Source: Anaerocolumna sp. (lineage in GTDB: Bacteria > Bacillota > Clostridia > Lachnospirales > Lachnospiraceae). From it: a DNA stretch of 32,084 nucleotides. A model generated the notes under the pieces. It saw only the letters and a program-made list of their open reading frames with translations. It made no database searches and was not told the DNA's origin. The stretch is taken from positions 1 to 32,084 of the forward strand of contig JAQZAX010000006.1 of assembly GCA_029239455.1 (NCBI GenBank). Reading direction: 5' to 3'. A program made the position numbers and the translations under genes. Shown here piece after piece: positions 5,143 through 20,545 of the stretch (position 1 is its first letter; each line of letters opens with the position of its first letter).

Positions 5143-5337
5143 ATGACTATCAACCTAATATTTAGAATTGCGGCGGTAGGCATATTGGTTTCAGTTTTAA
5201 ACCAGGTACTAAAGCAATCAAACAGAGATGAACAGGCCTTTTTGACAAGCCTTGCAGGATTAGTACTGGTTCTGTTTTGGATTGTCCCATACATATATGA
5301 TCTATTTGAAATTATTCAGAATTTATTTACCCTATAG
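5143..5337 (+). CDS. spoIIIAC: Stage III sporulation protein AC
   Basis: 64 residues with two membrane segments (about 5-22 and 36-54) joined by a short polar loop (KQSNRDEQA). Size, two-helix plan and position between spoIIIAB and spoIIIAD identify it. In the channel model it is a small integral membrane part of the mother-cell complex. AAGGAGG lies just before the ATG. The following gap of 123 bases to spoIIIAD is unusually long for this operon and contains a repeated structured element. Confidence 0.94.
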   Translation: MTINLIFRIAAVGILVSVLNQVLKQSNRDEQAFLTSLAGLVLVLFWIVPYIYDLFEIIQNLFTL

Positions 5338-5379
5338 GAATAAGTGATAAGAGTGAAAGAAAATTTAGAAAAAGAAAGG

Positions 5380-5460
5380 TTGCCAAAGTGTGCTTCTTTC
5401 TCTCCTTTTTATTTGTGGCAGTATCGCAGGCCAATCTGCGATATGAGGTGGGTGTAAATT
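5380..5460 (+). repeat. structured repeat element, copy A (upstream of spoIIIAD)
   Basis: About 81 bases from TTGCCA (5380) to the base before the spoIIIAD ATG. The last part, 5410-5458, matches 11651-11699 upstream of ispA at 44 of 49 positions, and the similarity extends upstream to TTGCCA with small gaps. It folds into a hairpin of 9 pairs (5422-5430 with 5435-5443, loop CCAA, innermost pair G-U). TGCCA at 5381-5385 can pair with TGGCA near 5416-5420. The end of the element (AGGTGGGTGTAAA) acts as the ribosome site for spoIIIAD, as no other SD-like sequence lies there. Its role is unknown: a dispersed repeat, a cis-acting RNA, or both. Confidence 0.8.
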
Positions 5461-5844
5461 ATGATCCAGATAGCATTAATAGGAATCGTTGTAGTTTTAA
5501 TGGGGATACAATTTAAAAGCACTCGGGCCGAATATGCAATATACATTAGCATTGCAGGGTGTATCCTGATTTTTTACCTTGGAATTAGTAAACTGGAGAT
5601 TATCATTAACGCGATTAGGAAAATACAGTCTTATATTAACCTAAATGAAACTTATATTACTATATTGATTAAGATTATTGGAATTACCTATATTGCGGAA
5701 TTTTCTTCAAATATATGCAAGGATTGTGGATACAGTGCAGTCGCAAATCAGATTGAATTAGTGGGGAAATTAACTATATTGGCTACCGGCATGCCTATTC
5801 TTTTAGCTTTACTTGATACCATTAATAATTTCCTGACGGCATAA
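5461..5844 (+). CDS. spoIIIAD: Stage III sporulation protein AD
   Basis: 127 residues, the usual length, with several hydrophobic segments (about 3-17, 25-42, 63-80, 104-124). The family segment KDCGYSAVANQIELVGKL near residues 86-103 identifies it. It is an integral membrane part of the SpoIIIA complex. Unlike its neighbours it has no AGGAGG: the site before its ATG is AGGTGGG, which belongs to the repeated element at 5380-5460. Its translation may therefore depend on that structure. Confidence 0.94.
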   Translation: MIQIALIGIVVVLMGIQFKSTRAEYAIYISIAGCILIFYLGISKLEIIINAIRKIQSYINLNETYITILIKIIGITYIAEFSSNICKDCGYSAVANQIELVGKLTILATGMPILLALLDTINNFLTA

Positions 5845-11400: not shown

Positions 11401-11601
11401 ATGGAAAAAGTAGAAAAAACTTTAGAATCTTCCTTTGGCGAGTTAAATGATATTATAAGCAAATTGGAGAAGGAAGAAATTACATTAGAAGAATCCTTTC
11501 AGTTATATCAGGAAGGTGTAGAACTTCTGAAATATTGCAATAATTCTATTGATAAAGTAGAAAAACAACTGATAATTTTAGGAGAAAATGTTGAAAGATA
11601 A
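11401..11601 (+). CDS. xseB: Exodeoxyribonuclease VII small subunit
   Basis: 66 residues, the expected small size. The family pattern is FGELNDIISKLEKEEITLEESFQLYQEGVELLK in two helices, followed by a third helix (NSIDKVEKQLIIL). It directly abuts xseA and binds the C-terminal helices of XseA. The gap after it carries the repeat element found also before spoIIIAD. Confidence 0.94.
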   Translation: MEKVEKTLESSFGELNDIISKLEKEEITLEESFQLYQEGVELLKYCNNSIDKVEKQLIILGENVER

Positions 11602-11617
11602 TAATTAAGAGAAGGGA

Positions 11618-11700
11618 TTGCCATAAGCGAATAGATTCTTTCAACCTATTTATTTATGGCAGTATGGCAGGCAAACCTGCGATATAAGGTGGGTGTAAAA
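11618..11700 (+). repeat. structured repeat element, copy B (upstream of ispA)
   Basis: 83 bases from TTGCCA to the base before the ispA ATG. Core 11651-11699 matches 5410-5458 at 44 of 49 positions. The hairpin pairs GCAGG (11667-11671) with CCTGC (11676-11680), loop CAAA; the innermost pair is G-C where copy A has G-U, while one pair lower down is lost to a G-G mismatch. TGCCATAA (11619-11626) is exactly complementary to TTATGGCA (11654-11661), a longer outer stem than in copy A. AAGGTGGG at 11686-11693 is the only SD-like sequence for ispA. Confidence 0.8.
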
Positions 11701-12627
11701 ATGAATCAGGAGAAGTTTGATATAGAACGGGACCAAAGAGGCGCCTATATTGAAGAGATTCTAAGCAAATATTTGCCGAAAGAAACTGGATACCAAAAAA
11801 CAGTACTGGAAGCCATGAACTATAGTGTCCTTGCTGGGGGGAAAAGATTACGTCCCATGCTCATTTTAGAGACTTATCGTTTATTTGGAGGGGAAGATAC
11901 TAGTATTATTGAACCTTTTATGGCAGCAATCGAAATGATTCATACCTATTCCCTGGTACATGACGACCTGCCTGCCTTGGATAATGACGAATTCAGAAGA
12001 GGCAGAAAGACGACGCATATAGTGTATGGGGAAGCAATGGGTATTCTTGCAGGAGATGGCTTGTTAAATTACGCCTTTGAAACTGCCTGTCATTCCTTAA
12101 ATAGAAATGTTTTTGGTAATATGACTCCAGAGGCTCAGTTAATGAGGCTTACAAGAACTGCAAAAGCCCTGGAGATACTGTCTGTAAAAGCAGGTATTTA
12201 TGGTATGATAGGCGGTCAGGTGATTGATGTGGAAGGAACAATGGAATCCCTTGAACAAGTACTCAATATGTATCAGTTGAAAACCGGAGCACTAATAGAA
12301 GCTTCCATGATGATTGGAGCAGTTTTAGCCGGGGCAGATGAAAATGCGCTAAAAATTATTGAACAGATGGCATCGGATATAGGACTGGCATTTCAGATTC
12401 AGGATGACATTTTAGACGTCACTTCAACCCTTGAGGTATTAGGGAAACCAATTCATAGTGATGAACGTAATGAGAAAGCAACTTTTGTAGCTTTTGTGGG
12501 ACTAGAGCAAGGGAAAAACGAAGTGGTACAATATTCTTCCCGTGGATTAGATGGATTCCGTCTGCTTGGCAGAGAGAATGAATTTTTGCGTGACATGATG
12601 ATTCATCTGATTAACCGTGAAAAGTAA
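11701..12627 (+). CDS. ispA: Farnesyl/geranyl diphosphate synthase type polyprenyl synthetase
   Basis: 308 residues. Joins isopentenyl diphosphate to allylic diphosphates; the neighbouring dxs supplies the precursor path. The first Asp-rich motif is DDLPALDND (88-96), the second is IQDDILD with D235/D236, and GGKRLRP (46-52) binds diphosphate. These match short-chain synthases of the IspA type. The chosen start is ATG 11701, behind AAGGTGGG in the repeat element. The frame stays open through the element to an ATG at 11656, but that codon has no ribosome site and the extra 15 residues are repeat-encoded. Product chain length (C15 or C20) cannot be set from sequence alone. Confidence 0.93.
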   Translation: MNQEKFDIERDQRGAYIEEILSKYLPKETGYQKTVLEAMNYSVLAGGKRLRPMLILETYRLFGGEDTSIIEPFMAAIEMIHTYSLVHDDLPALDNDEFRRGRKTTHIVYGEAMGILAGDGLLNYAFETACHSLNRNVFGNMTPEAQLMRLTRTAKALEILSVKAGIYGMIGGQVIDVEGTMESLEQVLNMYQLKTGALIEASMMIGAVLAGADENALKIIEQMASDIGLAFQIQDDILDVTSTLEVLGKPIHSDERNEKATFVAFVGLEQGKNEVVQYSSRGLDGFRLLGRENEFLRDMMIHLINREK

Positions 12628-20293: not shown

Positions 20294-20420
20294 GAGGGGA
20301 GTATAAATAATCAAAAACGTAAACCTTACATATTATACAATGCATTCATTGTCGCAAATTGTAGAATAATGTATATTAAACGTTTTTTACAGTATATAAT
20401 ACCTATTTTTCTATGTCAAG

Positions 20421-20545
20421 TGATAGATTATAATTTTATTATTAAGTGATAGATTATAATTTCATTATTAACTATGATAGATTATAATTTTATTATTATC
20501 TATGATTATAAGTTTATTACTATCTATAATTAATTTTATTACCGT
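20421..20545. repeat. AT-rich degenerate direct repeats, period 26-28
   Basis: Units starting TGATAGATTATAATTT begin at 20421, 20447 and 20475 (periods 26 and 28). More degenerate units begin at 20503 and near 20523. The gap 20123-20716 is otherwise without genes: it holds hairpins, a terminator, this array and a promoter. The array ends about 120 bases before the -10 region of the Ig-like protein gene. Confidence 0.75.

Follow-up and report, generated by a model that had tools for sequence, protein, structure and literature searches.

Two copies of a structured repeat

The window, a stretch of 32,084 nucleotides from Anaerocolumna sp., contains two related sequences located on the forward strand directly in front of functionally distinct genes. 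The first precedes spoIIIAD (5461..5844; open reading frame with Pfam SpoIIIAC/AD, PF06686). The second precedes ispA (11701..12627; Pfam polyprenyl_synt, PF00348) and follows the exonuclease VII small-subunit gene (11401-11601, forward strand), also identified with Pfam. The first-pass annotation had described them as a repeat of about 80 bases, each copy ending just before a start codon. The pair is real, since an independent direct-repeat finding aligned 5404-5458 with 11645-11699 (55 nt, 89% identical), and the copies do lead to the ATG at 5461 (SpoIIIAD) and to that at 11701 (polyprenyl synthetase). This repeat forms the 3' portion of a longer element, of about 110 nt, whose real starts are situated about 30 nt further 5', at 5351 and about 11590.

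Copy 1 (5351..5460, forward strand), a representative of subtype 1, was delineated by BLAST and is matched at 5348-5465 by the covariance model R1 with 141 bits. It starts with the 5' arm of a stem named S1, GAGTGAAAGAA (5351..5361), whose partner TTCTTTCTCTC lies at 5394..5404. The 5' arm of a second stem, S2, TTGCCAAA (5380..5387), would pair with TGTGGCAG (5414..5421) and form a pseudoknot with S1. The hairpin H3, TATCGCAGG-CCAA-TCTGCGATA (5422..5443), has G-U as its inner pair, and is followed by a Shine-Dalgarno (SD)-like tail, AGGTGGGTG (5446..5454). These parts were read from the sequence, with the additional support of pair counts for both S1 arms and the S2 3' arm, of double changes in the alignment for H3, and of anti-SD energies for the tail.

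Copy 2 (11590..11700, forward strand), of subtype 2, was delineated from the sequence, BLAST and the match L035, and its 5' arm overlaps the 3'-terminal codons of the gene for the exonuclease VII small subunit. Its S2 arm ATTGCCATAA (11617..11626) faces TTATGGCAGT (11654-11663), its H3 hairpin TATGGCAGG-CAAA-CCTGCGATA (11663..11684) has a G-C inner pair and one G-G mismatch further down, and its SD-like tail is AAGGTGGGTG (11686..11695). The hairpin with a G-U to G-C change and the TGCCA...TGGCA stem (S2), both annotated at first, are present as described; the additional stem S1, which interlocks with S2, had been missed. The copies belong to two different subtypes and are both somewhat degenerate, copy 1 having one mismatch in S1 and one in S2. 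Elsewhere in the window (20418-20502), an AT-rich repeat of 26-28 nt occurs in three tandem copies.

Architecture and variant forms

In the draft genome that holds the window (G000), the element comprises, from 5' to 3', the S1 5' arm GAGTGAAAGAA, an A-rich loop with a GAAAGG end, the S2 5' arm TTGCCACA, a short loop, the S1 3' arm TTCTTTCACTC, a T-rich strand (L3), the S2 3' arm TGTGGCAG, the hairpin H3 TATCGCAGG-NNNN-CCTGCGATA, and the tail AGGTGGGTG or CAATGGGTG followed by TAAA, 1-2 bases and ATG. Because S1 and S2 (TGCCAC/GTGGCA) interlock, the RNA would consist of an H-type pseudoknot with H3 on its 3' side. Subtype 2, to which the ispA copy and others of the same genome belong, has GGTTGAAAGAA/TTCTTTCAACC and ATTGCCATAAAT/ATTTATGGCAGT, both sides being changed in both stems. 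A short form of about 85 nt is found in six genera of the family. Its S1 is a plain hairpin and its S2 5' arm is absent; H3 is retained, together with most of the TTATTGGTGGCAGTA strand and an SD-like tail, for example GCAGGAGGTG.

Other arrangements were observed. In five loci of the closed genome G010 (L317-L321; G010:C1:2618519-2618762, 3532515, 4110012, 4238560 and 643338), a 53-nt 5' module consisting of the S1 hairpin with its TGCCAC loop is present in tandem at least two times, with a single 3' half and ATG after the array. A second kind of hairpin element (L071, L160, L170, L259), made of a hairpin, CCTGATTTGTA or CAAATTTGTGCT, a second hairpin, an SD-like stretch and ATG, nests with the first kind. 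A GCCGC..GCGGC-like hairpin with a stretch like CATCATGTCTGA, perhaps a further repeat, lies 5' of the copies at L048, L063, L066, L067, L068, L100 and L105. Finally, at L021 (G000:C41), a tandem pair runs into the interior of a gene, presumably a flippase-like one, and its second copy is without the usual ATG; this arrangement could be an assembly join.

Copy number and taxonomic range

The repeat pair is more than a chance resemblance, as 44 BLAST matches, the weakest at E 9.7e-8, were obtained in its own draft genome (2.455 Mb, 75% complete), and some Lachnospiraceae contain dozens of copies per genome. Model R1 was built from 24 subtype-1 copies, with S1 and H3 modelled and S2 left out. 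It matched 15/15 Anaerocolumna genomes and one other sampled genus (16/61 genomes); 60 candidates were scored per genome, so that counts of 60 are lower bounds. The lowest R1 copy counts were those of G003 (4) and G004 (3). A strict pattern matched 14/15 Anaerocolumna genomes and its reversed control gave 0 matches. Other carriers, among the matches listed, include Robinsoniella peoriensis, a Herbinix MAG and Lachnoclostridium phytofermentans.

A broader model, R2, was used with strict filters and nine candidates scored per genome, conditions under which weak or diverged forms can escape. At E <= 0.001 it matched 20/397 genomes and 18/334 genera in the family. In the order 9/392 genomes were matched, five of them from one further family, and phylum-wide the own genome alone among 398 (E <= 1e-4). 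The 409 kb searched in G003 gave one weak partial match (E 0.07). Pattern matches outside the order (L079, L094, L098, L117, L121, L140 and L177, among the matches listed) are without the S1 5' arm and were discarded as chance. An origin from a phage or plasmid was likewise dropped, with no match in phage or plasmid collections at E 0.01.

That this might be an RNA family not described before, as proposed at first, agrees with the comparison to Rfam 15, which gave 0 matches at gathering score over the whole window and, for the region 5300-5520 at E<=10, seven matches all far below it. A scan of 10 loci yielded two T-box matches and one Clostridiales-1 match, the element itself being without match at gathering score. 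At L264:1393-1551, the Clostridiales-1 RNA (RF01699) match is directly 5' of the element and overlaps its 5' part. No description of the element was found in titles and abstract starts of the literature, most subscription papers being outside this scope.

Covariation of the stems

With 112 distinct rows fitted to R1, 93.8% of the cells were paired, compared with 85.1% after shuffling and 40-55% when the arms were slid. Double changes affected 21/28 pairs, and the covariation score was 0.253 vs 0.107 in shuffled alignments. They were distributed over H3 (9/9 pairs), S1 (9/11) and S2 (3/8, with 88% of cells paired), in an alignment whose model included S1 and H3 but not S2. For subtype 1 of the own genome taken alone, the signal is weak: 97.0% of cells were paired vs 96.7% in shuffles, 40/500 of which were as high. 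S2 is almost invariant within Anaerocolumna, and its main support comes therefore from differences on both sides between lineages; among loci L075-L176, its conservation is inflated by their choice with a pattern requiring TGCCAC and GTGGCAG. The differences, detected by eye, are TGCCAC/GTGGCA, TGTCAC/GTGACA (G960), TGCCCA/TGGGCA (G168) and TGCCAT/ATGGCA (subtype 2). The element thus displays the conserved structure with compensatory changes of a riboswitch or another cis-regulatory RNA, weakly within one subtype and in alignments fitted to S1 and H3. An additional helix between L3 and the tail, which would hide the SD, is pairable and has no clear covariation; it was kept as a sub-hypothesis only.

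Placement before start codons

Placement was scored as an ATG at -8 to 0 of the model end, opening a frame of at least 60 aa (or at least 20 aa to the contig end). Such an ATG was present at a fixed place in 95 of the 112 distinct copies assembled first, and in 89 of these it occupied one of two adjacent offsets; the same criterion was satisfied by 3.4% of 5000 random positions. The catalogue was then enlarged to 229 entries, reduced to 227, and to 222 after stricter de-duplication. In this catalogue, which combines model matches with a pattern requiring TGCCAC and GTGGCAG and is not a random sample, 191/222 copies end at a fixed place before a frame-opening ATG. The remaining 31 were inspected by eye: about 16 precede another element, three precede GTG or TTG gene starts, nine have an ATG or an ATG-containing stretch that opens only a short frame, and a few are ambiguous.

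Since both R1 and R2 include the tail and ATG, and the catalogue is non-random, G010 was searched with a pattern limited to the 5' half. The 54 matches (reversed control, 0) correspond to 43 sites in this one genome. A gene start lies within 30-170 nt in 42/43 of them, compared with 34% of 6000 random positions, and within 60-110 nt in 32/43, compared with 17% at random. The sole site without gene start is L335, an array of 5' hairpins. Most of these sites show the tail by eye; that of L331 is not recognisable. The placement independent of start codons that characterizes MITE- or REP-like repeats was therefore not what this test revealed. In 53/195 copies (counted before the last de-duplication), the tail contains an ATGGG that reads in frame into the host ATG without an intervening stop, and the start of these genes could be earlier by a few codons.

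A search of this genome and its relatives with a covariance model had been proposed at the outset; it shows numerous copies, nearly always just before start codons, with paired changes.

Insertion between the Shine-Dalgarno sequence and the start codon

The gene spoIIIAD was found in 13/15 Anaerocolumna genomes. Its closest relative, in G003 (SpoIIIAD 98% identical), reads ...TATAGGGAAGTGACCAT|ATG, at the place where the own genome has ...TATAGGAATAAGTGATA, the element and TTATG. A by-eye alignment with this empty site (GGGAAGTGACCAT|ATG) identifies GGAATAAGTGATA (5337..5349, forward strand), now 5' of the element, as the probable remnant of the native SD-to-ATG spacer. By eye, no recognisable copy precedes the gene in any of the 12 other Anaerocolumna genomes having it. 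Other inserts occur at this place in G008, G004, G002 and G013 (L183-L186). That of G004 has a tail-like ATGCAATGG and is possibly an eroded copy.

Further empty sites were found for the PTS enzyme I-like gene and the nadD-like gene, by comparison with G003, and for cinA and HPr. In the comparison at L006, the native SD stretch is poorly matched on the filled side; those at L005, which did not align cleanly, and L029 were uninformative. As far as alignments tell, these empty sites in relatives show an insertion between the native SD and ATG. At empty and filled sites, no target-site duplication longer than 0-2 nt was recognisable by eye. In G010, eight catalogued near-identical copies occupy eight places, each before an ATG with 1-2 bases between. 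This is, judging by their sequences, a recent spread. On the upstream side, five of them have their own SD-like stretch and three the tail of another element. The mobility suspected in the first-pass annotation finds support in empty sites and recent near-identical copies.

The fate of the SD was analysed in 176 non-tandem copies, counted before the last de-duplication, so that a few doubles are possible. An SD-like stretch (<= -6 kcal/mol) is present in the 18 nt 5' of the element in 83/176 copies. Applied to two windows located further 5', the same criterion gives 23/176 and 28/176; shuffling of the 18-nt window gives 26%. The tail of the element itself is SD-like in 114/176 copies, being a weak SD in most Anaerocolumna copies (AATGGGTG). 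These counts suggest that, in many cases, the native SD stays behind upstream of the element, which supplies a new one. A same-strand open reading frame ends -10 to 60 nt upstream, as inside operons, in 61/176 copies.

Host genes and history across the genus

The first-pass annotation had proposed that a sporulation and an isoprenoid gene share control through this repeat. Pfam was used on 28 downstream proteins of the own genome, corresponding to the 30 listed G000 entries minus L021 and L040 (triosephosphate isomerase and the nadD-like protein were added later). They are functionally unrelated, three being without match, and include SpoIIIAD, D-Ala ligase, a PTS enzyme I-like protein, a class II tRNA synthetase, a MutY-like glycosylase, a polyprenyl synthetase, transporters and regulators. 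The association with functionally related genes that characterizes riboswitches is therefore not seen among these 28 proteins. A copy recognisable by eye at spoIIIAD is present in 0/12 other Anaerocolumna genomes, and shared control of the sporulation and isoprenoid genes is not supported by these results. The broader alternative, a mobile, translation-friendly repeat or a cis-acting RNA family, finds support in both its halves.

The copies before spoIIIAD and HPr are recent and limited to one species each, and G008 has a different copy before an HPr paralogue. At cinA, a copy is common to three related species and two more have an eroded one; the remaining genomes comprise seven empty sites, one other insert, one unreadable site and one without match. 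Among these copies, common by descent, H3 was kept by a double change (TATCGCAG/CTGCGATA in G011 vs TATCACAG/CTGTGATA in G014), and the eroded copy of G005 has kept and extended S2 and lost S1. Both observations suggest some selection on structure in place at cinA. In addition, 16 pairs of similar genes, some of them paralogues, have copies in two genomes, and many of these have different subtypes, which points to repeated insertion or conversion.

A proposed portable ribosome-binding site

The explanation that we favor, and consider rather probable, is that a proliferating structured element enters the gap between the SD and the start codon and takes over as ribosome-binding site. It starts from the placement, the empty sites, the paired changes, the recent copies in many places and the SD-like tail, all visible in the sequences. 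The element, non-coding and with a length of about 110 nt (short form, about 85 nt), would multiply in Lachnospiraceae genomes and integrate, in sense, within the few bases separating the SD from the start codon. Its RNA would adopt the H-type pseudoknot (S1, S2) and the hairpin H3, and would present an SD-like tail of its own a few nt upstream of ATG. Once the element is inserted, this tail would serve as the ribosome-binding site of the host gene, and the insertion would be tolerated for this reason, even in operons or before housekeeping genes. The old SD, upstream of the element, would be free to decay; we infer that ribosomes use the tail as their site, and that the decay follows from it. 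Recent copies, even the near-identical ones, are found at start codons without exception; the mover would therefore presumably recognise a translation-initiation site along with the folded RNA or with single-stranded DNA.

A translational switch acting in cis, which would resemble a riboswitch or bind a protein and would have been copied to many genes for their coordinated control, appears unlikely. The tail would be free with S2 formed, and blocked with S2 open by pairing with the L3/S2-3' strand. The double changes found across genera (in alignments fitted to S1 and H3) are consistent with this model, as are the cinA copies, where H3 persists by double change (G011 vs G014) and S2 is kept and extended without S1 (G005); such structure could equally be retained for mobility. 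The minimum free energy fold of a recent copy (L277) has its tail paired, a loop CCATGC is complementary, by eye, to the tail GCATGG in G203 and G337, and the tandem 53-nt modules place several TGCCAC loops before one GTGGC. The proposed L3-tail helix itself argues the other way: 77-81% of its cells are paired (31-52% when slid), but its covariation is not above that of shuffled alignments (0.103 vs 0.107, and 0.104 vs 0.103); a weak hint in favor of the helix comes from the second alignment, where 7 L3-tail pairs have double changes vs 4.0 after shuffling. The unrelated functions of the host genes also speak against coordinated control.

An ordinary interspersed repeat of the MITE or REP type, inserting anywhere and purged so strongly that only start-codon insertions remain, is improbable. 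Such repeats are typically small, contain hairpins and exist in many copies, with subtypes and tandem copies, and all of this is found here, with many similar short copies dispersed in one genome; recent copies, however, should include neutral intergenic sites, and 0/8 of the near-identical G010 copies do, while 42/43 of the sites detected without the tail in that genome lie before gene starts.

Very improbable is a portable upstream open reading frame, which would be translated from the native SD at NTG-AAA-GAA-AAT, with translation coupled to that of the host gene. A GTG or TTG, in some copies an ATG, is usually available in the 5' arm at SD distance, a 34-codon frame reaches TAA just before ATG in 16/38 NTG-start copies of G000 (three further without NTG), and in other genomes early stops are fewer in that frame (31/140) than in the other two (131/140 and 78/140), but neither frame nor peptide is kept, the A-rich loop having indels of 1-2 nt and stops being scattered throughout the element in other genomes. 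No conserved reading frame being found, a leader peptide was rejected as a conserved feature, its frame being broken by these indels and differing between species.

Returning to the element that would carry its own ribosome-binding site, a more ambitious and tentative proposal is that it belongs to a new class of mobile elements, with an insertion machinery able to recognise translation-initiation sites, perhaps via mRNA bound at the start codon and back to DNA. It would provide a portable, possibly switchable ribosome-binding site, and its long, short, multi-module and second-hairpin types would share this habit and be nested within each other in this bacterial order. We regard the element as a variant of interspersed repeats, with a fair chance that its targeting is of a new kind. 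If the favored explanation is true, dozens of genes in one genome would have had their ribosome-binding site replaced by one folded RNA. Nature would thus have run an experiment on translation initiation, mobile DNA would have a new preference for its targets, and these anaerobic bacteria might possess a post-transcriptional switch acting genome-wide; gene starts and leaders in carrier genomes would need re-reading.

Comparison with known systems

Several known systems share part of these properties. The bcr1-type repeats of Bacillus cereus are, like this element, structured and mobile-looking repeats of Firmicutes; to our knowledge, they have no start-codon placement. The translational riboswitches preQ1 and SAM-II have an H-type pseudoknot beside the SD and start codon and control few related genes. 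The element described here resembles them by its pseudoknot at this place and differs by its dozens of recent copies, unrelated genes and absence of Rfam match. The byp elements of yeast mitochondria are structured and mobile, and are located inside coding sequences, where the ribosome skips them. In both cases a structured mobile element would be tolerated since translation copes with it, here before the start codon instead of within the gene.

According to their published description, the BOX, RUP and SPRITE repeats of pneumococcus, which are small, structured and interspersed, have multiplied within one lineage and are enriched between convergent genes; BOX and RUP have terminal inverted repeats and target duplications (PMC3049150). 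The present element is similarly small, structured and proliferated, and its start-codon placement contrasts with the convergent-gene preference reported for them. The closest case of placement found is that of the TAACTGA direct repeats of marine Beggiatoaceae, of which 169 sets are reported in one genome, most in sense and a few nt upstream of the start codons of genes without common function; a translational role is suspected, and the repeats of other lineages are presented as not tied to start codons (PMC4679880). Sense orientation, proximity to start codons and unrelated genes are thus common to both. As far as that report describes them, the TAACTGA repeats are heptamers arranged in tandem, which have little SD character and overlap the ribosome-binding site expected there (PMC4679880), unlike the present element of 110 nt, with its interlocking stems and its own SD-like tail.
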